DNA of 64,000 nucleotides. Origin: Comamonas sp. (GTDB lineage Bacteria > Pseudomonadota > Gammaproteobacteria > Burkholderiales > Burkholderiaceae_C). Both the position numbers and the translations under genes were made by a program. The stretch spans positions 186,001 to 250,000 of the forward strand of contig NZ_SPEY01000020.1 of the NCBI RefSeq assembly GCF_009360615.1, in the 5' to 3' direction. The stretch's first letter is position 1, and each line of letters begins with the position of its first letter. Below are positions 14,855 through 64,000 of the stretch, piece after piece. The notes below the pieces were generated by a model. That model worked only from the letters and a program-made list of their open reading frames with translations, was not told where the DNA came from and made no database searches.

Positions 14855-15640
14855 CTAATCCAGCCACGGTGCCACATCCTTGCACATGCGCACGGCCAGC
14901 TTCTTGAGCCGCGGAAGATAGCGCTCAAGCAGTTCTTCCTTGACAACCGCAGTCTTGGGAAAGACCAGGTTCAGGCCCCCGATGAGACGACGTCCGCTTT
15001 TCAACGGCACTGCAACGGCTCCGAAGGGCGCCTGTTGGTGCCAATCACCATCGCTGATGCCATATCCGCGCTGGCGGGTCTCATCAATCAGACGCTCCAC
15101 TGCGGCCCTATCCCTTGCCATGGCTCCTGTCGCATCGTCCCGCTGTGCGAGAAGTGAAAGCAAGCCCTCCTTCTCATCGCTCGAGCAGGAGGCCAGGTAG
15201 GCCCGTCCCATCGCGGTGAAGAAAAGCGGCAGCTTTTCTCCGATCATTCCGCGATGCTGAGACAAACGGCTGAAACGGTGCGTGCTTTCACGCACGACCA
15301 TAAAGCCGCCTTCCACGGTTCCCAGGTCGCAGGGCCAAAGCAGTTCGGGCACTGCCGCACGCATCAGAGGCAATGCGACTTGTTCCACCCAAGCATCATC
15401 GACAAGCCCTTCGCTCAGACTGCGGACTGCGAAAGTCAGGTAGTACTGTCCGTCTTTCTCACCCCTGCGCACATAGCCCTCCGCCCGCAAGGTCTCCATC
15501 AGTCGCTTGACGGTGGTGCGATGAATGCCGCAGGCCTGTGCCAGTGCTGAGGTTGATGCGATGCCGCCCGGGGCTCTGTTCATTGCCTGCAGCAGAGCCA
15601 GGCCTCGCGACAAACTGCGTACATCCTTGTAGTCGTTCAT
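14855..15640 (-). CDS. mhpR: MhpR, IclR-family activator of the mhp operon
   Basis: 261 aa, IclR length. The N-terminal winged helix-turn-helix covers about 8-65 (ALAQACGIHRTTVKRLMETL) and the C-terminal effector domain about 80-255. In E. coli, MhpR activates the mhp catabolic operon in response to 3-(3-hydroxyphenyl)propionate. The gene is divergent from mhpA with a 329-bp gap holding an excellent MhpR-like operator, which supports the same role here. Confidence 0.9.
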   Translation of the reverse strand: MNDYKDVRSLSRGLALLQAMNRAPGGIASTSALAQACGIHRTTVKRLMETLRAEGYVRRGEKDGQYYLTFAVRSLSEGLVDDAWVEQVALPLMRAAVPELLWPCDLGTVEGGFMVVRESTHRFSRLSQHRGMIGEKLPLFFTAMGRAYLASCSSDEKEGLLSLLAQRDDATGAMARDRAAVERLIDETRQRGYGISDGDWHQQAPFGAVAVPLKSGRRLIGGLNLVFPKTAVVKEELLERYLPRLKKLAVRMCKDVAPWLD

Positions 15641-15969
15641 GGGTCTGTGCTCGATGGTCAGGAGTTTTCAGGAGGGCCCCAGTATGAACGCCAAGAGCCA
15701 CACGACGTGTTCTCCGGGGCGAGGGCCGCGGCAGCACTTCATGAATACCCTCGATCCGGTACGCGCCTGCGTGCCGCCTGCCACTGTGCATCCTCAAGCC
15801 GCCTGGACAGGCATCGCATCAAACGACTGCTGACGGCGAGAAAGCCGCGTCGGCAAGGGTATGCACCTAGTCATTGGTGCACCAGGTGCACACTGTTTCC
15901 AGATTCTCCGAGTGTTTTGACAATTATCAAAGCCGCACTCGATGTGCGCATCAATTACGGAGACTGAGA
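15641..15969. promoter_or_regulatory. mhpR-mhpA divergent control region
   Basis: The 17-bp palindrome GGTGCACCAGGTGCACA at 15876-15892 is an almost exact match to the operator I recall for E. coli MhpR (central base differs). A strong -35 element TTGACA lies at 15917-15922 with no good -10 at 17 bp, as expected for an activator-dependent promoter. The dyad centre is about 36 bp upstream of that -35 box and about 85 bp from the mhpA start. The mhpR-proximal half of the gap shows nothing else I recognise. Confidence 0.7.
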
Positions 15970-55240: not shown

Positions 55241-55327
55241 ATGAAATCAATCGACTCCGATAGCCCCACGCAAACCGCCATCCCCAAGGTGGGCTTTGTT
55301 TCGCTGGGCTGCCCGAGTGATATTTAA
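55241..55327 (+). pseudogene. rimO: 5' fragment of rimO, interrupted by prophage
   Basis: The ATG at 55241 opens a frame of 28 codons. Its residues 15-25 read PKVGFVSLGCP, the nearly invariant start of RimO (ribosomal protein S12 methylthiotransferase), in which the sequence continues with KALxDSE. Here it changes to SDI and stops at 55325-55327, so homology is lost after about 55315. The remainder of the gene is not in the window. The break marks the left junction of the prophage. RimO is not essential in E. coli. Confidence 0.8.
55300..55316. other. Probable prophage attachment site in rimO
   Basis: The last bases that still encode RimO (TTCGCTGGGCTGCCCGA) should include the crossover core. 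The exact core cannot be set without the other junction. Confidence 0.5.
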
Positions 55328-55366
55328 TGTATAGCGTAGCAGAACCCACACTCGCAAACGAAAATG

Positions 55367-55387
55367 GCCTGCCTGACATAGGCAGGC
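55367..55387. terminator. Hairpin near the prophage end
   Basis: Perfect 8-bp stem GCCTGCCT / AGGCAGGC with a 5-nt loop, flanked by AAAATG and TTTGAG. It may stop rimO-directed transcription entering the prophage. Confidence 0.55.
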
Positions 55388-55429
55388 TTTGAGTCTGTGT
55401 GAGTTGAAAGCTTGAGCTGAAATGAAAAA

Positions 55430-55453
55430 GGGCCTGTCCAAACGGACAGGCCC
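55430..55453 (-). terminator. Terminator of the prophage minus-strand operon
   Basis: Perfect 10-bp stem GGGCCTGTCC / GGACAGGCCC with loop AAAC. On the minus strand it is followed by a T-run (AAAAAG on plus). It closes the gene at 55476-55682. Confidence 0.85.
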
Positions 55454-55475
55454 TTTGCATATGGCTTCGTAAGTC

Positions 55476-55682
55476 TCAGCCCCAGGTTGTGCCTGGTGGC
55501 AGTTCCAGTTTCTTGACGATGACTACATCGGCTTCGCCGGAGATCTCGCCCACCACTGGGATGCGGCGCAGTGTGGGTGCTTTGAGCTGGGTTAGTTCCT
55601 CGATAACGTCAGCGGCCTTGACGGCCGTCGCATCCCCTTTGCGAAGATCTGCCACCAGTTGCTCAAGTTCAGCGCGTTCCAT
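55476..55682 (-). CDS. Small phage hypothetical protein
   Basis: 68 aa from the ATG at 55682 (AAGGA upstream). An acidic helical N-terminal half (ERAELEQLVADLRKGDATAV) and a beta-like C-terminal half (GEISGEADVVIVKKLELPPG). No family recognised; excisionase-like function cannot be argued. It is the gene nearest the rimO junction. Confidence 0.65.
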   Translation of the reverse strand: MERAELEQLVADLRKGDATAVKAADVIEELTQLKAPTLRRIPVVGEISGEADVVIVKKLELPPGTTWG

Positions 55683-55706
55683 GATCAATCCTTTCAGTTG
55701 AGGTAA

Positions 55707-56357
55707 TCATAGTGCGCTGTGGGTGATGCGCTTGAAATCGATCACCCAGACCCAGGGGTTTGCGGCCCAGTCGCCGCCGGTGGACTCCCAGATATGGCGG
55801 AAGTGCTCAAGAGGTGTTGCGCTGTAGGCGTAGTCTGGGATAGAGCCGTGACCTCCGGCAGTGCCCTCTGCAACGCAGTCCGCTTCTGTGATCTGCTGCA
55901 GGCGCTCCACGCGCACTCCGGTGATCTCCAGCCAAATGCGGGCCAGCGCCTTGGGCATGTGAATAGCCGGTTTCCATGGCACTTTTGTTTCCCAACCGTC
56001 TTCATCGCTCCAGGTGAGGCATGGTTCAGTGGCGCGAAACCATGTTTTCATCGGAAGGTTGTTTCCCTCGTCGTCGCATGTACGCAAGCGGTCGATTACA
56101 GGGTCGTACTCGTAGCCCTGGACGAACGTCTCGCGCACATAGATGCGGTCGCCTGGGCCTCCTGTTGGGCAAGCTATGTGCACATTTTCCGAGCCAATGG
56201 CTAGATTCATTCCGTCATTGAGCTTGAGATAGTGGCCGCCCATGAACGTGTCATCTGCCACCGTCTCCTGCTTGCAGATGCGTCGCGTTTGGGTTTTCTG
56301 TCCACTCAGGATGGTGCGCACCAAGGGCGCCTTGAACATCAAGCCGGTTTCTTTCAT
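55707..56357 (-). CDS. ASCH-like phage protein
   Basis: 216 aa; GGGAG lies 8 nt before the ATG. The start FKAPLVRTILSGQKTQTRR is the hallmark of phage proteins with an ASCH/PUA-like fold (sometimes labelled morphogenetic protein). GDRIYVRETF and the C-terminal HFRHIWESTGGDWAANPWVW are also typical. ASCH domains are thought to bind RNA or modified bases. Function in phage is unknown. Confidence 0.75.
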   Translation of the reverse strand: MKETGLMFKAPLVRTILSGQKTQTRRICKQETVADDTFMGGHYLKLNDGMNLAIGSENVHIACPTGGPGDRIYVRETFVQGYEYDPVIDRLRTCDDEGNNLPMKTWFRATEPCLTWSDEDGWETKVPWKPAIHMPKALARIWLEITGVRVERLQQITEADCVAEGTAGGHGSIPDYAYSATPLEHFRHIWESTGGDWAANPWVWVIDFKRITHSAL

Positions 56358-56380
56358 TAGGTAGCTCCCTAAAAGCAGAA

Positions 56381-56398
56381 CCCCGCTCAGTGGCGGGG
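56381..56398 (-). terminator. Prophage hairpin terminator 1
   Basis: CCCCGC-TCAGT-GGCGGGG, the same plan as the other prophage hairpins. The minus-strand loop carries a TGA stop codon in frame with a 25-codon ORF. Confidence 0.6.
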
Positions 56399-56464
56399 CT
56401 CGGGGTTGCGTTTCTCTTGATCGCGCTCACGGCGGGCGCGGCGGATGTCTCGTTTGCGGCTCAT
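56387..56464 (-). CDS. Possible 25-residue basic peptide
   Basis: MSRKRDIRRARRERDQEKRN then PEPRH. Very basic. The ATG follows the HAD-like stop by 2 nt with no ribosome-binding site, so it would depend on translational coupling. The stop lies inside the hairpin terminator, as in two other genes of this prophage, which is the main support. Confidence 0.35.
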   Translation of the reverse strand: MSRKRDIRRARRERDQEKRNPEPRH

Positions 56465-56466
56465 GT

Positions 56467-56766
56467 TTAGTCAAAGTTGAGGATTCGACATGGCTCGATC
56501 ACGCCTGGCATGTCGTCAATCCATATGTTGATGGGGTAGCCAGCTTTCGCCGCTGCATCGCGCTTGAGGCCATCAGGGCCAACACACACGAATGGGATGC
56601 TGTCTGGCATCCGTGGTTCTCGTGTGAAGTCAGGAGGCTCACGCCGGCCAGTGACGCAGACCACGGTATGGCCGCGCCGCTGAGCGCTACTGATGAACTC
56701 GCGCCACAGAGCAGGGTCGGCCGTGAATGTGTGGTCGTAATCAAGACTGATGTTGAGCGCCGTCAT
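56467..56766 (-). CDS. HAD-like phage hydrolase
   Basis: 99 aa. Motif I DYDHTF with Asp9 and Asp11, motif II in VCVTGRRE, and late acidic pair WIDDMPG. A minimal HAD fold without cap, of the kind found in many phages; substrate unknown. Its start overlaps the upstream gene by 4 bp. Confidence 0.72.
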   Translation of the reverse strand: MTALNISLDYDHTFTADPALWREFISSAQRRGHTVVCVTGRREPPDFTREPRMPDSIPFVCVGPDGLKRDAAAKAGYPINIWIDDMPGVIEPCRILNFD

Positions 56767-56978
56767 GCTTGGCCTTTCTGCGCCTGGGCGCGCTTTGCCT
56801 TGTGTGTTCCGCGGACTCCCTTCGGATCAAAGTACAGCTCGCCACCTACAAGTTCCAACCAAGCTACTGCCACGCCATTGACTTGTGGGTATCCAGCATC
56901 AGTCACTCCCGTAACAGTGCCCGCGCCGCGTGGGCTGTCTTTCACGGCGTCGCCAATCTCGATGTAGTCGCCTGCCAT
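56763..56978 (-). CDS. Phage hypothetical protein
   Basis: 71 aa from the ATG at 56978 (preceded by GGGGGAG; TGATG overlap with the upstream stop). Beta-rich: GDYIEIGDAVKDSPRGAG, then GVAVAWLELVGGELYFDPKG, with a basic tail. It looks like a small SH3-like or KOW-like barrel, but this is not certain. Confidence 0.6.
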   Translation of the reverse strand: MAGDYIEIGDAVKDSPRGAGTVTGVTDAGYPQVNGVAVAWLELVGGELYFDPKGVRGTHKAKRAQAQKGQA

Positions 56979-57292
56979 CACTCCCCCTTTTGTGCCTGGG
57001 CGGCGCGCTGTGTGTGCGTGCTCCAGTCGTCAGCTCTTCGCGCTTCGATGAAGCGCTCAACAGCTTTCATTTCCGAATCAAAGCACTCGTCGCGTTCTTT
57101 CTGGCTAATACCTCCGTCCAGCAAGAAAATCAGTGCTTTTGAACAATGGCTGCGTACCGTCTGCATGTCAGCGCCGAAGCTGATGGCACCTGCAACAGTG
57201 ACGCTTTGGGTTCCCCCGCCTATGTACGCACCGGGCACTGCATCAAGCGCCTGGAAAACGCGCAATATCATTTTTCGTTCGCTGAGGTTCAC
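56978..57292 (-). CDS. Phage hypothetical protein
   Basis: 104 aa from a GTG at 57292 with GGGGGAG 5 nt upstream; its GTGA overlaps the stop of the preceding gene. The frame upstream of this GTG is a shadow. Protein-like sequence (ERKMILRVFQALDAVPGAYI, FDSEMKAVERFIEARRADDW). No known family. Confidence 0.62.
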   Translation of the reverse strand: MNLSERKMILRVFQALDAVPGAYIGGGTQSVTVAGAISFGADMQTVRSHCSKALIFLLDGGISQKERDECFDSEMKAVERFIEARRADDWSTHTQRAAQAQKGE

Positions 57293-57552
57293 TGCTGCTC
57301 CCCCTTTGCTGCCGCGATAGCGGCGCGGTCGACGCTTATCCAGTTGGAGTAGAAACCTTTGCCCCATGTGATCGTGTAAAGCACGCACAGAGCAAAGATT
57401 CCCCATTGCTGGGTTTCCCAGGCTGCATAGAACCAGAATGGCTGGCCGACGAGGCCGAAGACAGAGGCCCAGCGGCGGCGCGCGGCCATGGTCGATTGAG
57501 AAAGCGCCACGGCCGTGACGCCAAACAGTGCAATGAAGATTTGAGAGATCAC
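57289..57552 (-). CDS. Phage membrane protein
   Basis: 87 aa. Two or three hydrophobic stretches (ISQIFIALFGVTAVALSQS, VFGLVGQPFWFYAAWETQQW, GIFALCVLYTITWGKGFYSN). Such small membrane proteins occur in superinfection-exclusion or conversion roles; not assignable here. Overlaps both neighbours by 4 bp. Confidence 0.65.
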   Translation of the reverse strand: MISQIFIALFGVTAVALSQSTMAARRRWASVFGLVGQPFWFYAAWETQQWGIFALCVLYTITWGKGFYSNWISVDRAAIAAAKGEQQ

Positions 57553-58640
57553 AGCAGCGCCCCTTGCACTTCTGCATTTCGTCGGTTGTAGCCATGGCGG
57601 TAGCCGCGCTGATAGTCAGATTCCGCATCCCGCGCGTCTGCCTGGGTTGCAAGCTGGGTTGCCTCCTGCGCATTCGCTTCAGGTGTCTGGGGTGCTGCAA
57701 CTGGGCTCTGTGCAACGTCATGCAGCAGCGCGGCACGGGCATCCACGAATGTGGCCCATGCCTCATATGGAATCCGCGCATCCATATCGCCCTGGCTTTC
57801 GTCAATGGGTGTTGCCGTGTGCTCAACCGCCTTCATCGCTGCCATTGCGCGAGTCAGCAGCGCAGTCTGGTGATCCACCAGATGCGACAGGTGACCTACA
57901 GATGCCGCGTCTGCTGCTGCCTGGATAGGGTCTACTGCCGGCGCCGATACTCCGGCCAGCAGGGCGCGCAGGCGCTCCATTTCTTCGGCGGCATCTACGG
58001 AGACAGGATCTCCGTTTTCCTGAAGCGCTTCTATGACGCGGCGTGTATAAGCATCATCGTACACAGGCTCAGGCAGCACCACTGGCACAGTAGCCCCGAC
58101 CTCTGCGCGGATAGCTGCCCAGTTTTCCTGAGCTCGCTCTGTAAGGATTTTGCGATCACTCTCAGGCATTTTGGCAATGGCTGATTGCGTCATGCCCTTT
58201 GTTAGAAACATCCAGAGCGTGTTTGATGCTGGGATTTCCTCTGGCAGCACCACTAGCGCGGGTTCTTGCAACCCAACTTGCAACGGTGCAAGCTCGCCTG
58301 CTGCCGGGGTGGCGGCAAGCGCGGCGCGGGATCGGTCAGCGTCCACGTAAGCGCGCATTTGTTCTTCCGTGAAAGTGCGATGCGCGACCGCACGCATTGT
58401 GGAATCAAGGGATGTTGACTCAAAGGCAGGAACCGGCAGCTCGGGGTATGAATCAGGTACTGCCACGGCTGCGGGCGCTGCCTGGTGCTCAGTGATCTGG
58501 TGCAGGCATGTGCCTGGGGAATGTCGTTGCACGATCTCGCGCAAGACATCGACAGTGATGCAGATGGTGTCTGGCTGGCCGAACTCGGCTACTTCTGCCT
58601 CGCAGCAGTCACGGATGATGAGATCTGAGTTGTCTTGCAT
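57549..58640 (-). CDS. Large phage hypothetical protein, Ala/Glu-rich
   Basis: 363 aa from the ATG at 58640; the frame upstream is not part of it. Polar, helical, Ala- and Glu-rich, without signal or membrane segments. Segments such as TDVLREIVQRHSPGTCLHQI and ESDYQRGYRHGYNRRNAEVQ are protein-like. Unknown function; possibly a scaffold or nucleic-acid-associated early protein. Confidence 0.65.
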   Translation of the reverse strand: MQDNSDLIIRDCCEAEVAEFGQPDTICITVDVLREIVQRHSPGTCLHQITEHQAAPAAVAVPDSYPELPVPAFESTSLDSTMRAVAHRTFTEEQMRAYVDADRSRAALAATPAAGELAPLQVGLQEPALVVLPEEIPASNTLWMFLTKGMTQSAIAKMPESDRKILTERAQENWAAIRAEVGATVPVVLPEPVYDDAYTRRVIEALQENGDPVSVDAAEEMERLRALLAGVSAPAVDPIQAAADAASVGHLSHLVDHQTALLTRAMAAMKAVEHTATPIDESQGDMDARIPYEAWATFVDARAALLHDVAQSPVAAPQTPEANAQEATQLATQADARDAESDYQRGYRHGYNRRNAEVQGALL

Positions 58641-58664
58641 ATAGGTGGCTCCCAGAATGAGAAA

Positions 58665-58682
58665 AGCCCGCGGCTGCGGGCT
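58665..58682 (-). terminator. Prophage hairpin terminator 2
   Basis: AGCCCGC-GGCT-GCGGGCT, 7-bp stem. Preceded on plus by GAAAA, that is, a short T-run on the minus strand. Confidence 0.65.
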
Positions 58683-58695
58683 GGGGTGCTGGTGG

Positions 58696-59451
58696 TCAGG
58701 AGGTGTATTCCTGCTCTGCGATCTCGCATGTGACGCCGCAGGCCGGCAGCCATTCCTTGCGGTCGGCCTTGCCTGCAGGCAGTTCATGGAGAGGGAAGCG
58801 CTGTCCCTTGAGCGGACCGGAGCGGTGGCGCAGGATGTAGGCACCTGGGCCAATCTCGGCCTCTACGTCTGCAAGCCGCTTGAACTCTTCGGGATAGTCC
58901 TCGCGGATCGCTCTGAAGTAACCAGCTCCGCCCTTGACGCAGCCGATGCAATTGGCGTTCTGATAGCCCTGCAGGTACATGAATGGCAAGGTGATGCCAG
59001 CGCGCTCCACCATGGTCTTGCAGTCGGTCTTCGTGAGGCCGCGCTCAATGAGCGGTGCAACTACTGGGCGGTCTGGGTAGGCTTCCTGAAAGTCGTCCAG
59101 TCGCCACTGTTCGTCAGAGGTGTAGCCCAATACCAGCACATCGCCGGGCTGCTCGAATGTTCGCAGCAGATCGCGTTTCAACCTCTTGGTGCAGGAAGCA
59201 CCTTGACGGCCCTTGATGTAGCGAGTGCGGCGGAACACCTCGATTGGGTCCGCATCATATTTCTCATCACGCAGGATCACAACCTTGCGTCCGAACCAGG
59301 CCTCGCAGTCGGCCAGGAATCGACGGTTATCGGCGTGTTCACCAGCTAGATAGGCATTGATGATTTCGCAACCGTCGCCGTACTGTGCGATGGCGAGCTT
59401 GGTGGCGACTGCTGAGGCAGCGCCGCATGAAAACTGGCAAACAATTCGCAT
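58696..59451 (-). CDS. PP-loop ATP pyrophosphatase, PAPS-reductase-like phage protein
   Basis: 251 aa from the ATG at 59451; frame upstream is shadow. The N-type PP-loop FSCGAASAVA (Ser8, Gly10, Ser13) and LGYTSDEQWRLDDF fit the PAPS-reductase/DndC superfamily. Four cysteines lie in two pairs, C168-x2-C171 and C238-x3-C242, with Cys87 in GASCTKRLKR. These suggest a bound Fe-S cluster or zinc. Possible roles are adenylation-dependent sulfur transfer to nucleic acid, or a host-metabolism enzyme; only the family is known. Confidence 0.78.
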   Translation of the reverse strand: MRIVCQFSCGAASAVATKLAIAQYGDGCEIINAYLAGEHADNRRFLADCEAWFGRKVVILRDEKYDADPIEVFRRTRYIKGRQGASCTKRLKRDLLRTFEQPGDVLVLGYTSDEQWRLDDFQEAYPDRPVVAPLIERGLTKTDCKTMVERAGITLPFMYLQGYQNANCIGCVKGGAGYFRAIREDYPEEFKRLADVEAEIGPGAYILRHRSGPLKGQRFPLHELPAGKADRKEWLPACGVTCEIAEQEYTS

Positions 59452-59470
59452 AGGGCTCCAGAAAGCAAAA

Positions 59471-59490
59471 AGCCCGCTCAGTGGCGGGCT
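59471..59490 (-). terminator. Prophage hairpin terminator 3
   Basis: AGCCCGC-TCAGTG-GCGGGCT preceded on plus by AAAA. Closes the gene at 59501-59761. Confidence 0.75.
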
Positions 59491-59500
59491 GTGGTGGGTT

Positions 59501-59761
59501 TCAGGCTGCTTTGAGCAGTGGCGGAATAGGGCTGCTCTGCACTCGCAGATGTCCGAAGCCCTTGAGCGTATTGCGGTAGCAGGTGACGATTGCCGCTTCG
59601 ATCTCTTGGGCAACACTCGTGCCCGATGCGATGACCTGGCCGTCTTCCGTGATGATTGCCAGCTGAGCAGGCTTGCCCTTGTAGGTTGCCTTGGGTGGCT
59701 CGTGGCTCACGGTATGGATGAGGACGCCATCGATAGCGCCCGTAGTTTGTTCTCCCAGCAT
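59501..59761 (-). CDS. Phage hypothetical protein
   Basis: 86 aa from the ATG at 59761 with AAGGAG upstream. Residues LIHTVSHEPPKATYKGKPAQ and EIEAAIVTCYRNTLKGFGHL are protein-like. Not recognised. Confidence 0.65.
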   Translation of the reverse strand: MLGEQTTGAIDGVLIHTVSHEPPKATYKGKPAQLAIITEDGQVIASGTSVAQEIEAAIVTCYRNTLKGFGHLRVQSSPIPPLLKAA

Positions 59762-59817
59762 GATGGTTCTCCTTTTCCTGGTTGTGTGGCTGCGCGGGTT
59801 GCATGCCGGTGGCGCGG

Positions 59818-60051
59818 TCAGTGACCGCAGGGCAGGCTGCCATCGGGCAGCGGGTGGTTGCGTGCGCCGCAGCTGATGCAAAGCGGAGGCGTGGCAGCGG
59901 GCGCGCTGTGGCCGGTGCACTTCACGGCAGTGACGCCGTCGGGGTAGCGCTGGATGGGCTGCATGCTCGCAAACTGCAGATCCGCGCACGCTTTGGATCC
60001 ATTGGTGCAGGTTGTGCACATGCTGCCTTTAGGGATGTGGGTGATGGTCAT
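59818..60051 (-). CDS. Cysteine-rich phage protein, probable zinc binding
   Basis: 77 aa (67 from the ATG at 60021, which has AAAGG nearby). Cysteine pairs CTTC, CISC and a final CGH suggest a zinc ribbon. It overlaps the upstream gene by 23 bp. Function unknown. Confidence 0.58.
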   Translation of the reverse strand: MTITHIPKGSMCTTCTNGSKACADLQFASMQPIQRYPDGVTAVKCTGHSAPAATPPLCISCGARNHPLPDGSLPCGH

Positions 60052-60238
60052 TGGACAGTGGCATGCAGAGGTTGAAGGTCGCCAGCCAATGCAGGCCGGC
60101 AGCGGTGTGGAAGGGGTAGGGGCAGGCCTCGTTGGCCGTGCGGCCAGCGTGATACGCCTCGCGGGCTTCGGCCTCCACCTGGGCCTTGGGGATCAGCGCC
60201 TCGCCCCCGGCCCAGGTGGTCTTGAGGTCTTCAGCCAT
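60029..60238 (-). CDS. Phage hypothetical protein
   Basis: 69 aa from the ATG at 60238, 8 bp inside the end of the P-loop gene. Segment AREAYHAGRTANEACPYPFH is like the ribosome modulation factor (Rmf)-type GxxAxxxGxxxxxCPY pattern seen in phage Rmf-like proteins, so an Rmf-like short protein is possible. Confidence 0.6.
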   Translation of the reverse strand: MAEDLKTTWAGGEALIPKAQVEAEAREAYHAGRTANEACPYPFHTAAGLHWLATFNLCMPLSNDHHPHP

Positions 60239-60488
60239 GGGCGTGATTGGGGGCCTGGGCCATCTGGCGCACGGCTTGCTCAAAGCTCATGCTGCGCACG
60301 GGGCAGTGCTGCGGCTGGGTGTTGGCCAGGATCAGCGTGTCATGGCGCGGCAGCTGGCGGGCGCTGGTCAGGCCCTCGCAGTCGGTGTCATAGACCTTGC
60401 TGAGGCCGAAATGCTGCTGCAGGCGAGCTGCCTGGCTGGCTTTACCGCAGCCGCGAGGGCCGAAGATCACGATAGAACGGGTGGGCAT
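60231..60488 (-). CDS. Mini P-loop phage protein
   Basis: 85 aa from the ATG at 60488 (AAGGAG at 7 nt). The Walker A motif GPRGCGKAS lies at residues 10-18, followed by a helix and a VYDTDCEGL segment. A Walker-B-like LILAN follows. It is much shorter than full kinases; perhaps a truncated or specialised nucleotide-binding protein. Overlaps the upstream gene by 47 bp. Confidence 0.65.
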   Translation of the reverse strand: MPTRSIVIFGPRGCGKASQAARLQQHFGLSKVYDTDCEGLTSARQLPRHDTLILANTQPQHCPVRSMSFEQAVRQMAQAPNHAHG

Positions 60489-60672
60489 GGCGTTGCTCCT
60501 TTGCATGCTTGATGGCGCGCAGCGCTTGCTGCAGCTCGGTTTGAAAGTAGGTATCTAGAGAGGGCGCAGGCGTGGCGGCGGTTGCTGCCTGGCTCTGCAT
60601 GAGGCGCAGCAGGCGGCTGCGCTGTCGGTCGCGGTGCTGCAGCTCGTGCAGCACGGTGTCTATCGGATGCAT
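60442..60672 (-). CDS. Phage hypothetical protein
   Basis: 76 aa. Helical and basic: LHELQHRDRQRSRLLRLMQS, TYFQTELQQALRAIKHAKEQ. It starts 13 bp inside the upstream 44-codon gene and overlaps the next. Plausible because of the tight operon; family unknown. Confidence 0.55.
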   Translation of the reverse strand: MHPIDTVLHELQHRDRQRSRLLRLMQSQAATAATPAPSLDTYFQTELQQALRAIKHAKEQRHAHPFYRDLRPSRLR

Positions 60673-60794
60673 CGGCAGGAGATCCCCAAGCCCATGTGGC
60701 CCAGCTCGTTAAAGCCGTGCTCGAAAGCTTCGGCGGTGCTGCGGGCAATGTGCTGGATGGAGACACCGCCGCATGTCAGGACGAAAAGTCGCAT
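60660..60794 (-). CDS. 44-residue phage protein
   Basis: MRLFVLTCGGVSIQHIARST, then AEAFEHGFNELGHMGLGISC, then RCIR. The ribosome-binding site AGGAG lies 7 nt before the ATG and overlaps the upstream stop (CTAGGAG). It fills what would otherwise be a gap in the operon. Function unknown. Confidence 0.55.
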   Translation of the reverse strand: MRLFVLTCGGVSIQHIARSTAEAFEHGFNELGHMGLGISCRCIR

Positions 60795-60804
60795 GGCGGG
60801 GCTC

Positions 60805-61044
60805 CTAGAACAGCTGCAAATTCAGGTGGTTGGTGGTACCGGCGCGCACACGGTTGATGGTCATCAAGGCCGGTGCGTGCTGTTGGCGGCGGCGTGGCTT
60901 CTTGGCCTGGGCTGCCTGCTCGGCTGCGATGCGCTCGCGGGCCTTGGCGAAGGTGTCAGCAATGTTGGTGCTGGTTGAATGGATGTACTGGAATGCCGCG
61001 CTGGTGATCGGGACGCTGGGCAAGGTCTGGCGTGCTGCTTGCAT
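60805..61044 (-). CDS. Phage hypothetical protein
   Basis: 79 aa from the ATG at 61044 (GGAGA upstream). Helical, basic centre: FAKARERIAAEQAAQAKKPR. No known family. Confidence 0.6.
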   Translation of the reverse strand: MQAARQTLPSVPITSAAFQYIHSTSTNIADTFAKARERIAAEQAAQAKKPRRRQQHAPALMTINRVRAGTTNHLNLQLF

Positions 61045-61072
61045 GGGGTTCTCCGGTTGAGGGCAAAAGAAA

Positions 61073-61092
61073 AGCCCGCTCAGTGGCGGGCT
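61073..61092 (-). terminator. Prophage hairpin terminator 4
   Basis: AGCCCGC-TCAGTG-GCGGGCT with a T-run on the minus strand. The TGA of the upstream gene (61080-61082) lies in its loop and stem. Confidence 0.75.
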
Positions 61093-61421
61093 TCGGGGTT
61101 GGTGAACAGCTTGGTTCCGGGCCATGCGTAGAGCAGCAGGCCGTCGTGCCGCGCACTGCGCAGGCTGTTGTTGACCTCGTCCGTTAAGCGCTGCTCCGAG
61201 CCGCACAGGGCAAGGTTTGTTACCTTGTCCAGCTTCCCGTAAAGCTTGAGACTCAAATGTTGGAGAGCCACCAAATTAGCGAGATCTCTCAAGTAGGCTG
61301 CAACCCAGAAATGGGGGTGATCACCTGAGGTCAGTTCTGGGAACTGCATGCTCAGGTGCTCGGCCTTGGGGGCGCGGCGGCGGGTGGGGGCTTTTCGCTC
61401 GGTTGTAGCGGGTGTTGCCAT
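61080..61421 (-). CDS. Phage hypothetical protein
   Basis: 113 aa from the ATG at 61421 (GGAG at 9 nt); ATGs at 61427 and 61436 are alternatives. A basic N-terminus (ERKAPTRRRAPKAEH) is followed by a helical domain (FWVAAYLRDLANLVALQHLS, RLTDEVNNSLRSARHDGLLL). The last codons ARH and the stop are part of a terminator hairpin. Confidence 0.62.
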   Translation of the reverse strand: MATPATTERKAPTRRRAPKAEHLSMQFPELTSGDHPHFWVAAYLRDLANLVALQHLSLKLYGKLDKVTNLALCGSEQRLTDEVNNSLRSARHDGLLLYAWPGTKLFTNPEARH

Positions 61422-61441
61422 GGTCATTGGCTCCATGAAAA

Positions 61442-61461
61442 AGCCCGCTCAGTGGCGGGCT
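61442..61461 (-). terminator. Prophage hairpin terminator 5
   Basis: Identical to terminators 3 and 4 (AGCCCGC-TCAGTG-GCGGGCT), preceded on plus by GAAAA. It carries the stop of the zinc-finger gene. Confidence 0.75.
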
Positions 61462-62150
61462 TGGTGGTGGTGGGTTGCGATGACAAATTCGCGCATCGGC
61501 ATGATTGCGCCCCAGCCCTGATCGAAGCGAATAAGGATGGCGCCGCAGTCGTGCTCGCCTATGCGTTGAGGTGGAGCCCATTGCGCGCCAGGCAGCTGAG
61601 CCAGCAGGCGCACATACTTGGCATCCACGCCGAAGCAGTGAGGGTTGTCGGGCAGCGGGATATTGCAAAATCGATCTGCGAGCCGCTCCCTCGGGATATC
61701 GCCAGCGCCCCGGCACAGATCGCATGGGTATGCGCCAAGAACATCTGCGCTGGGTGTCTCAATGTGGCCTGTGTCGTGGCACACATAGCAGGGAGTGAAG
61801 TCCCCGCCGATGCAGGTTGAGCAGGTTGATTGCGTCAGCCAGAGTGATCCCTGGCACTTTGGGCATTGCTCCAGATCCTGCAGTTTGGGGTGCGCCAGCA
61901 GCGGCGCAAATTCTCCCCACGAGGTTTCGAGCGTCTCTACGAGCTGCATGTGCAGTCGGTCAAGACTTGGCTCCATAGACTTGGTGGGTGTTGATGTGCA
62001 TAGCGGTGCATCGTCTTCGGGGATGGCAATCAATGCGCCGCCATCGCAGGCAAACACCATGCCCAGGGCTCTGAAATTCCCACTCAAGACATGGCGAAAC
62101 TCATTCGGGCCGCAATGCAAGCGGCGCATAAGGTCGTGGACAGATGGCAA
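61449..62150 (-). CDS. Phage protein with DnaJ-like zinc-finger repeats
   Basis: 233 aa from a TTG at 62150, chosen because AGGAG lies 5 nt upstream and the frame upstream runs through a terminator. The middle contains four CxxC units in DnaJ-like CxxCxGxG form (CPKCQGS, CSTCIGG, CYVCHDTG, CDLCRGAG), which would bind two zincs. No J domain is present. The C-terminus HHHQARH ends in the hairpin. Possibly a zinc-dependent holdase or a DNA-binding early protein. Confidence 0.7.
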   Translation of the reverse strand: MPSVHDLMRRLHCGPNEFRHVLSGNFRALGMVFACDGGALIAIPEDDAPLCTSTPTKSMEPSLDRLHMQLVETLETSWGEFAPLLAHPKLQDLEQCPKCQGSLWLTQSTCSTCIGGDFTPCYVCHDTGHIETPSADVLGAYPCDLCRGAGDIPRERLADRFCNIPLPDNPHCFGVDAKYVRLLAQLPGAQWAPPQRIGEHDCGAILIRFDQGWGAIMPMREFVIATHHHQARH

Positions 62151-62177
62151 GGTGGCTCCTGATGATGAGACAAAAAA

Positions 62178-62204
62178 AGCCCGCTCAGCGGTTGCTGGCG
62201 GGCT
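62178..62204 (-). terminator. Prophage hairpin terminator 6
   Basis: AGCCCGC / GCGGGCT with a 13-nt loop and AAAAAAA on the plus side (a strong T-run on minus). Confidence 0.75.
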
Positions 62205-62319
62205 GGTGAAAAGTGCCGGTGCCCTGTTGGGCATGCCTGGGGAAGTGATACAGAGGGAGGGAGGAGGGTCCCCAGGCCCGGCGAAAACTGAAACCATCTG
62301 GTGTGACCGCTGTCGCCAT
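62185..62319 (-). CDS. Possible 44-residue phage peptide
   Basis: The ATG at 62319 opens 44 codons (starting MATAVTPDGFSFRRAWGPSS) ending with a TGA inside terminator 6. No close ribosome-binding site, composition unremarkable. The only support is the shared stop-in-hairpin arrangement. Confidence 0.22.
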   Translation of the reverse strand: MATAVTPDGFSFRRAWGPSSLPLYHFPRHAQQGTGTFHQPASNR

Positions 62320-62491
62320 CAATGCAGAGTGTCACCTCCACGCTGAAGTTCGTGATTGCTGCTGCCTCAGACCCATTTCTGTGGCGGCAGACCTGCTTAA
62401 GCGGCCACACTAGATGGCCCCGCTGATGCCCTGCGGGGGAAGGCACATGCACGCCGCATGCTGGCTATTTGCTCACATTTTTGAATCTCCC

Positions 62492-62758
62492 TTATTTGTC
62501 CTTTTGCAGCTTCTCGCCGCAGAAAGGGCAGTGGCTGAAATAGAAGTTGACCTTCTCTGTCTTGCGTTTGTCGGCGCCTGTTTTTTTGACGGTGACGGTG
62601 TGGCGGATCTCCGCTGGCATGTATGGTTGGATGCCAAGACCCTTTCCTAAGGTGAGGGCGTAGCCCATCAGCTTTGCTTCAACGTCTCGTGACCCTGCAA
62701 GCTTGGGCCGGTAGTGGTCGGTGAGTCTCTTTTCAATGTCTGCTCGGCAATTGCACAT
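62492..62758 (-). CDS. Phage hypothetical protein with zinc-ribbon-like cysteines
   Basis: 88 aa with AGGAG upstream. N-terminal MCNC and C-terminal HCPFCGEKL may form one four-cysteine zinc site; the middle has KKTGADKRKTEKVNFYFSHC. Not recognised further. Confidence 0.65.
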   Translation of the reverse strand: MCNCRADIEKRLTDHYRPKLAGSRDVEAKLMGYALTLGKGLGIQPYMPAEIRHTVTVKKTGADKRKTEKVNFYFSHCPFCGEKLQKDK

Positions 62759-62788
62759 GCGGTATCTCCTGTGATGAGGGCGAAAAAA

Positions 62789-62816
62789 AGCCCGCAGGGC
62801 GCGTGCCGTGCGGGCT
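62789..62816 (-). terminator. Prophage hairpin terminator 7
   Basis: AGCCCGC / GCGGGCT with a 14-nt GC-rich loop and AAAAAAA on the plus side. Confidence 0.75.
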
Positions 62817-62834
62817 GGTGTTGGGTGGATCTGG

Positions 62835-63401
62835 CTATTTGCTCAGATCTTTTTCAAGCTGGGCTTTTTCGCTGCGCAAGCGCTCTAACTCGTTTTGTGC
62901 AGCCAGTTGCTCGCCCTGGCAGCGTGTTGCCACTGCCTGCATTTCTGCGCTGATCGACTGCTCCCAGGTAGCGCCTGCCAAGTTGTTCATGGCAGATCCC
63001 TTTCGTTGTGCGAGAGCATCAAGATCTTTGCGGCAGTTGTTCTGCACGCGCTGGATGTTGTCGTAGGCACCGCCGAGATACAGCTCATTGATGTCTTTCA
63101 GTCGACCACTCTTGCGCATGCGATCTGTTTGCGCGTTGATGCGATCGGCTTCGGTCATTGGCTTGACTGCGGGTGCTGCGCTCTGGCCCGCCGTCGGTGC
63201 AGGGGATGCTGCAGGGCTTGGCTTAGGCGCATGCCCAGATGCGGGCCGCACGTCAATCGTCGAGCTCTTGCCGGTGGTGCAAGGCCTGTCTTGAAATATC
63301 TGCTTGCCTGTTCCGTCGTCACATTTGTAGATGGCCCAGGCTGGCGTGCTGGCTGCAAAGAGCAGCGCAAATGCAGCCAGTGTTTGCTGGCGTTTCTTCA
63401 T
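62835..63401 (-). CDS. DUF4124 exported protein
   Basis: 188 aa from the ATG at 63401 (GGGAGA upstream). The signal peptide ends at about 23 (TPAWA); the DUF4124 motif IYKCDDGTGKQIFQDRPC follows immediately. A Pro/Ala linker precedes a C-terminal coiled coil (EQLAAQNELERLRSEKAQLE). A periplasmic protein probably expressed from the lysogen; it may change the host envelope. Confidence 0.78.
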   Translation of the reverse strand: MKKRQQTLAAFALLFAASTPAWAIYKCDDGTGKQIFQDRPCTTGKSSTIDVRPASGHAPKPSPAASPAPTAGQSAAPAVKPMTEADRINAQTDRMRKSGRLKDINELYLGGAYDNIQRVQNNCRKDLDALAQRKGSAMNNLAGATWEQSISAEMQAVATRCQGEQLAAQNELERLRSEKAQLEKDLSK

Positions 63402-63759
63402 GTCTTCTCCCTCATTTGATTGGGAGTTTTTAGCACATGAGGGAATTTGGTCAAACCGCAACGTCCTGGAACAAGGCGCTCTGGTTTGCCCCGTCGCGCA
63501 CGGGGCGGGCGTTGCCGGGATTCCAACCGGCATGACCGTTCTTGCTCTTGGCCGCCTTCGCCTCACCCTTTTGACCGTTTACGTACTTTGACGGCTGGAT
63601 ACGGCAGGGATGCCGCGCAGAGCAGCGGCCATGCCCGCTGATGCTATTTGCCCGCTAACACTCTGCTTTGGTGGAGTGAGCTCTGTGGGCGCAACTTTTC
63701 AAAGACCGGGCGTGTCCCGGTCGATGCCGTGGCGCCCATCGCTTAACTGCGACGAGCAG
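63402..63759 (-). other. Long untranslated leader of the prophage operon
   Basis: About 360 bp without a believable gene. A hairpin GCCCCGT-CGCGC-ACGGGGC is at 63488-63506. If the promoter at 63760-63789 is right, this is a leader where transcription could be attenuated or antiterminated. Confidence 0.4.
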
Positions 63760-63789
63760 AGTTTAAATCTAGCGAAACTAATTGGTCAA
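63760..63789 (-). promoter_or_regulatory. Candidate promoter of the prophage minus-strand operon
   Basis: Read on the minus strand: -35 TTGACC (63784-63789), 18 bp, -10 TAAACT (63760-63765). Just upstream is the palindrome ACTAAACTTTAGT (63796-63808), a possible operator. Confidence 0.4.
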
Positions 63790-63837
63790 GCTATAACTAA
63801 ACTTTAGTCCTGAATGTGAACGTGTTGATGCAAAAAA

Positions 63838-63856
63838 AAGCCGCGTAAAGCGGCTT
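63838..63856 (-). terminator. Terminator of the repressor gene
   Basis: AAGCCGC-GTAAA-GCGGCTT with eight A residues on the plus side, so a T-run on the minus strand. It follows the stop at 63884. Confidence 0.85.
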
Positions 63857-63883
63857 GTGTGGGTATTCACATCGAGAGTTTCG

Positions 63884-64000
63884 TTAGCAGTGATCACTTT
63901 TCCACACAGTCAACACAAGAGCGAGGATCTCGAAGTCAGCGGCCTTGGGGCTGATGTCGAAAGGTGGGTAGTCGGTGTTCTTTGAGATCACGCGAAAGAT
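63884..64000 (-). CDS. Probable S24/CI-like phage repressor, C-terminus only
   Basis: 38 codons plus TAA; the 5' part is outside the window. The residues IFRVISKNTDYPPFDI, then DFEILALVLTVWKSDHC, fit the end of LexA/CI-type S24 peptidase repressors, where an R-V-I/L-S-x-N-P-x-Y-P-P strand is followed by the final strand. Followed directly by a strong terminator. It would maintain lysogeny and respond to RecA if the catalytic Ser-Lys lie upstream. Confidence 0.6.
   Translation of the reverse strand: MFRVISKNTDYPPFDISPKAADFEILALVLTVWKSDHC

Follow-up and report, generated by a model that had tools for sequence, protein, structure and literature searches.

The window analysed here, a stretch of 64,000 nucleotides (C36:186001-250000) from a Comamonas-like bacterium, contains the left part of a temperate prophage. 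A large serine integrase very probably inserted this phage at an attB site in rimO, exchanging the 5' end of the gene and rebuilding it from a new phage start. The evidence consists of both junctions, a hybrid frame that is intact, relatives in which the site is empty, the gene for the integrase and attP-type sequences in free phages. In the mechanism that we propose, attB would consist of the codons surrounding the RimO motif VSLGCPKAL, where the phage integrase would act. Crossover at the TG of the cysteine codon would exchange the 5' ends of rimO, the left end keeping the host leader, the start codon and 23 codons as a dead fragment, and the right end contributing the phage-borne start MTEAISQKDQIPRIGMVSLG, which would run in frame into host rimO. 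Transcription of rimO would now begin inside the prophage, and the exchange should separate int from the sequence lying upstream of it in the circular phage.

Host and phage junctions in rimO

At the left junction, the frame opening at ATG 55241 is translated as MKSIDSDSPTQTAIPKVGFVSLGCP-SDI and ends at a TAA (55325-55327). The uninfected relative G405 (locus L039) encodes the same peptide MKSIDSDSPTQTAIPKVGFVSLGCP and continues into KALTDS. Compared base by base, the window agrees with this relative up to TCGCTGGGCTGCCC, with a few single mismatches, and then diverges, the switch from host to phage sequence falling at 55310/55311 within the SLGCP codons (Table 1). This comparison and the stop of the frame bear out the initial annotation, which had seen a severed rimO start followed by phage sequence. 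Between 55000 and 55700, three terminator-like sites were identified against a mean of 0.9 in shuffled sequences, a weak excess.

Table 1. Features at the left end of the prophage, in window positions
Feature	Position	Strand	Basis
Severed 5' end of host rimO, codons 1-23 (host half of attL)	55241..55309	+	Peptide identical, and DNA nearly so, to uninfected L039
Putative crossover dinucleotide TG, bases 1-2 of the TGC codon of SLGCP	55310..55311	+	Centre of dyad symmetry in the rejoined attP
Phage half of attL; read-through frame gives SDI, then TAA	55312..55327	+	Equals right half of attP; TATA at +19 to +22 just past
Prophage, left 8.7 kb of 39,990 bp (TG to TG); extends past the window to C36:281299	55310..64000	.	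Phage families in prophage proteins
Terminator-like hairpin barely inside the left prophage end	55367..55387	-	Terminator scan, weak
Terminator-like hairpin of 13 pairs	55427..55456	-	Terminator scan

The att core had been predicted as a direct repeat of part of TTCGCTGGGCTGCCCGA; this holds for TGCCC, the only exact repeat common to both junctions, and fails for the remainder. A sole junction repeat of this kind fits a serine integrase. A long direct repeat was rejected as att core, the compared stretches giving two 11-base matches only, both away from the junctions.

The remainder of rimO, expected to resume at KALxDSE, is present beyond the prophage as SLGCPKALTDSELI from C36:281291, in the genome's only full RimO (C36:281276-282625, same contig). 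As had been envisaged for the other end, the right prophage end supplies a new start, an ATG and 20 codons in frame with rimO. The hybrid gene begins at ATG 281240 with MTEAISQKDQIPRIGMVSLGCPKALTDSE, comprises 465 codons and matches TIGR01125 with 545.1 bits (cut-off 356.95) over model positions 1-432 of 432. To the right of the TG, its DNA shares 92% identity with L039 over 1330 ungapped bases. When the outer flanks are joined, the result is a host RimO that has the same start as L039, MKSIDSDSPTQTAIPKVGFVSLGCPKALTDS, and matches L039 over 1-468 at 99%. The cysteine of SLGCP, the first conserved one of RimO, which holds the N-terminal Fe-S cluster, is retained in the hybrid. It aligns with the LGCP of the RimO chain 4jc0. 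The earlier suggestion that the insertion probably switches off S12 methylthiolation is unsupported, because the phage end restores a full-length RimO frame in which the first ~20 residues are swapped and the cysteine is kept. There is no intact second rimO that would make the severed copy a stray one, because the sole other TIGR01125 match in the genome is the paralogue MiaB. From the kept frame and cysteine, the hybrid RimO is predicted to work, and RimO is presumably still made.

An empty site with a host-type rimO start is present in L039-L042, and these relatives and the two junctions support the view that a temperate phage has its attachment site in the first codons of rimO. Further attL/attR pairs were identified in G442 (attL near C57:5549, rimO from about 58075) and G440 (attL near C1:3166402, attR near 3130168). 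A DNA search of five other infected genus genomes (G442, G440, G445, G432 and G219) recovered a host 5' remnant in G442 only, and G440 yielded one by peptide; in G445, none was found in the whole genome at E 1e-5, nor by peptide in the 60 kb read. These gaps weigh against the proposed integration. This last genome (L169-L171) harbors a related prophage and a phage-type rimO start, its matching stretches being mostly 87-92% identical, with one at 71%.

Distribution and expression of phage-started rimO

Relatives of the integrase at E up to 1e-20 are present in 23 of 399 family genomes, with 24 matches. Ten of these adjoin rimO (L010-L018, L021), and a TPP-like sequence is the site of three (L019, L020, L022). 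A further ten loci, which are more distant, have no RimO motif within 400 bp (L023-L032), and the remaining one is a fragment (L033). The rimO gene was found at E 1e-100 in 52 of 53 genus genomes, and a phage-type start in 5 of 30 genus loci, our own included, G219 being a sixth. Among the best 80 of 94 loci with a related integrase in named genomes, 62 have a phage-type rimO start within 2.5 kb of the integrase, no more than 400 bp from int in 59 cases and farther inside the 2.5-kb flank in three (L105, L110, L130); the other 18 include some without upstream sequence (L091) as well as the TPP group. The hosts of the 62 belong to Comamonadaceae, Burkholderiaceae, Pseudomonadaceae, Lysobacteraceae, Oceanospirillaceae and others, and one is a MAG labelled Opitutaceae (Verrucomicrobiota). 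The strict phage-type pattern is found in 60 of them (53 with a full-length ORF, seven running off the locus end), and the two outside it are L125 (AAA codon, full-length frame) and L097 (frameshifted). With all genomes pooled and duplicates included, this pattern gives 75 rows, of which 66 are full length and nine run off the locus end; it forces the NGT/RTA codon counts, and the codon figures given below come from rows chosen by peptide.

In L097 (Aromatoleum toluclasticum; L097:2430-2458, minus strand), the rimO gene next to a rimO-type integrase has a frameshift at the crossover codons and SLGVP for SLGCP, which may be a real scar or a sequencing error; because of this locus, the integrity of rimO is not universal. 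Three related loci (L086, L087, L088) have SLGCAK instead of SLGCPK right past the crossover.

Of 18 phage records matched, four span 80% or more of the integrase. Three of these four (JC1, Rb1, LPPA36) and the viral contigs L069 and L072 carry a short RimO-like frame that runs into a stop; none was seen in the stretch of Bcep176 that was read. In Pseudomonas phage LPPA36 the frame is MSKTPSVGFISLGCPNE (L036:1102-1128, minus strand); it lies upstream of the integrase, from which about 1.4 kb and one annotated gene separate it. The rebuilding appears to be shared by a wide range of related integrases, and almost all of these come from Pseudomonadota here.

In a sister integrase clade (five rows, single clade, support 100), int is immediately preceded, on its own strand, by a TPP-riboswitch-like RNA. 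This RNA scores 28-37 bits over the full model in all five rows, short of the gathering score (54.3); L022, which is truncated, reaches 22.8 bits, and its likely copy L154 gives nothing at E 0.5. TPP-like loci are L163:1926-2035 and L162:3515-3671 (G282), as well as L019, L020, L022, L103, L111 and L122. The other end of the element in G282, some 24 kb away, has a second TPP-like RNA (40 bits) before a TonB-dependent receptor, as if the insertion had cut a riboswitch in two, restored it and left int following the host copy. No RNA family reached its gathering score in L019, L020, L022 or L006. The integrase tree was used for the TPP clade only, because the method is quick, several branches are long and the labels are unreliable (regular-expression labels, 11 label changes for rimO, and JC1, L034, mislabelled as "other").

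It is plausible that the phage controls rimO expression, because the gene is now parted from the sequence that preceded its old start. The new leader has no Shine-Dalgarno-like match before the phage-supplied ATG, whereas a weak one (GGA) is present in L039; judged in the same crude way, 26 of 69 unique phage-type leaders lack such a match, as do 7 of 25 from hosts. A promoter scan gave nothing convincing before the new start (one 9-of-12 match, 0.4 expected) and zero before the old host start. It is possible, although we consider it unlikely, that the prophage silences rimO, so that the hybrid frame would be hardly expressed without the host leader and S12 methylthiolation would be absent until excision, making rimO a phage-regulated gene. 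The host leader left behind at the left end and the new ATG lacking a Shine-Dalgarno-like match agree with this, as does the failure of the scan to find a clear promoter, an argument that is weak because none was found before the old start either. Silencing is opposed by the strict-pattern loci, where all 53 that do not run off the locus end keep a full-length frame, because a silent gene should decay more often, and by the RimO-like peptide on the phage arm in 75 int-adjacent rows (67 distinct; rows picked by that peptide). L097 is the exception. The authors of the JC1 study, in the part consulted, also expect RimO to function (PMC9144972).

Integrase and attachment sites

A scan of nine prophage proteins found families for terminase, portal, tape measure, tail and repressor; Pfam gave no family in three proteins of the left end. 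Judged by its tape-measure gene (943-aa protein), the phage appears to be long-tailed. The integrase gene (C36:279589-281253, minus strand) codes for 554 residues, or 550 from an inner ATG that overlaps the rimO ATG 281240 head to head, the two sharing CATG. The protein harbors an N-terminal resolvase catalytic domain (PF00239, 46.9 bits, cut-off 23.3) and a Recombinase domain (PF07508, 29.9 bits, cut-off 21.1). A zinc beta-ribbon match (PF13408) scores 24.1 bits, just short of the cut-off of 25.3, and CGYCG is invariant across a 15-row integrase alignment. The resolvase and Recombinase domains identify the protein as a predicted large serine recombinase, which probably made the rimO junction. 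Near the int end of the prophage lies a HicB-like and HicA-like toxin-antitoxin pair (L009:15099-15539 and 15593-15832). Next to it are a UmuD-like gene and one with the PHROG label "DNA polymerase", which is UmuC-like in our reading.

Rejoining the inner flanks gives the attP of the prophage, ...CGTATAGGTATGGTATCACTCGGG-TG-CCCGAGTGATATTTAATGTATAGCG..., with arms symmetrical at 11 of 11 bases; when its left arm was compared with 3428 TG sites of the prophage, 11/11 was reached once only. Seven attP were pooled, from both prophage ends (our own, G440, G442), phage records (JC1, Rb1) and viral contigs (L069, L072). In this set, which is of related sequences with our own and G442 nearly identical, symmetrical pairs amount to 86 of 140 at the TG and to 21-51 at 24 other even centres within 12 bases; single-base centres, counted in five attP, reach at most 42 of 100 against 60 at the TG. 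A TATA lies at 19-22 on both arms in six of the seven, the right arm of Rb1 having CAAA. The attB of six relatives are less symmetrical (8-12 of 26). Judged by symmetry only, the att sites would be short, with an attP unlike attB and a dyad around a dinucleotide, and TG, in the codon of the first conserved cysteine of RimO, is probably the exact crossover dinucleotide. A class-wide scan with an exact 28-base IUPAC att motif found our own genome only (1/369); this motif is strict, and the protein searches are more telling.

The left arm may serve two readers. In 75 rows (67 distinct) selected for the peptide xxxxxSLG(C/V) at no more than 400 bp from int, CGT or AGT stands five codons before Ser in 74 (AAA in L125), and the codon that follows is ATA or GTA in all; GTRTAG is found in 74 of these phage-type rows and GTRTAGG in 71. 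The same codons in 25 uninfected genus loci are AAG, AAA or CGC, followed mostly by GTG, GTC or GTT (GTA in two, ATT in one). The simplest reading would be that this arm presents GTRTAG, at -23 to -18, to the integrase and (R/S)(I/V) to the ribosome; the pattern does not represent 75 independent events, because the rows are related. A wider proposal, which we advance tentatively and with the balance against it, is that attP is doubly coded, its left arm being bound by the integrase and also encoding a working RimO N-terminus. The reciprocal swap would then put rimO under prophage sequence and deprive int of its upstream sequence, and S12 methylthiolation would be a read-out of lysogeny. If so, the phage would carry a portable first stretch of a host gene. 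A limited search of the open-access literature, as far as the texts were consulted, yielded no statement on a doubly coded attP or a TPP-riboswitch target.

The phage peptides are similar to host RimO N-termini, and the RimO-like stretch might be a captured host 5' end, cargo rather than a part of attP read by the integrase. This is improbable in view of the codon differences fixed between phage and host (CGT/AGT, ATA/GTA in the rows above) and of the TATA mark repeated on the other arm in six of seven attP; an origin by capture, later refined, may still be entertained. That the fragment is a stray piece of rimO or an assembly join, with no prophage boundary at 55310, has practically no standing despite an assembly in 125 contigs, given that both prophage ends lie on the single contig C36 and that the same junction pair occurs in G440 and G442, on a single contig each, and the right-hand type in further genomes.

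Comparison with known systems

SXT/R391 at prfC shows 5'-end integration with a new promoter and N-terminus, like the present case, but it is a conjugative element with a tyrosine integrase. The dusA-associated integrases are likewise tyrosine-type recombinases, unlike the serine integrase found here. Their elements swap in their own 5' end of an RNA-modification gene, the function of which is proposed to be kept, following the same 5'-replacement logic at a different target gene; a further target named in the part of that study consulted is rimO of Polaromonas naphthalenivorans CJ2, for which Yagi 2009 is cited (PMC4482086). The prophage J1_pp_2 of Variovorax boronicumulans is listed with a serine integrase, the site RimO, 39.8 kb and Siphoviridae type 1. 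Its listed att, GTCGCCGGTCTTGGCG, is unlike the one here when compared by the table entry alone, and the part of the article consulted has no account of gene rebuilding (PMC9658991).

The closest parallel is Burkholderia phage JC1 (OM283127), for which the mode of integration into rimO has been established at the DNA level (PMC9144972). Like the present prophage, JC1 has a serine recombinase, an attP beside int and the rimO 5' end as target, and its ATG keeps RimO in frame (PMC9144972). In our comparison, the two recombinases are 49% identical, and the JC1 attP has the same centre as here and TATA at 19-22 on both arms. By its authors' account, six of the first ten residues are changed, against 20 phage-derived residues here, and RimO function is predicted; streptomycin resistance was unaltered, which they do not regard as a test of RimO (PMC9144972). 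JC1 is a Bcep22-like podovirus of 61 kb (PMC9144972), whereas here we find a 40-kb phage with a 943-aa tape-measure protein, and the tape-measure and tail families speak against a Bcep22-like podovirus (Lessievirus). With a serine integrase by attP, the rimO 5' end as target and an in-frame phage start, the present prophage is a JC1-type rimO-integrating phage.

The integrase family would offer natural integrase/attB pairs at a conserved gene and is a clear candidate for a case in which the constraints of coding and of recognition overlap; rimO prophages could be an easy system for asking if lysogeny alters ribosomal modification. As for JC1, a prophage that seemingly breaks a gene would in fact rebuild its target; this integration mode is already known from JC1, and what is added here is its breadth across integrase relatives and the anatomy of attP.
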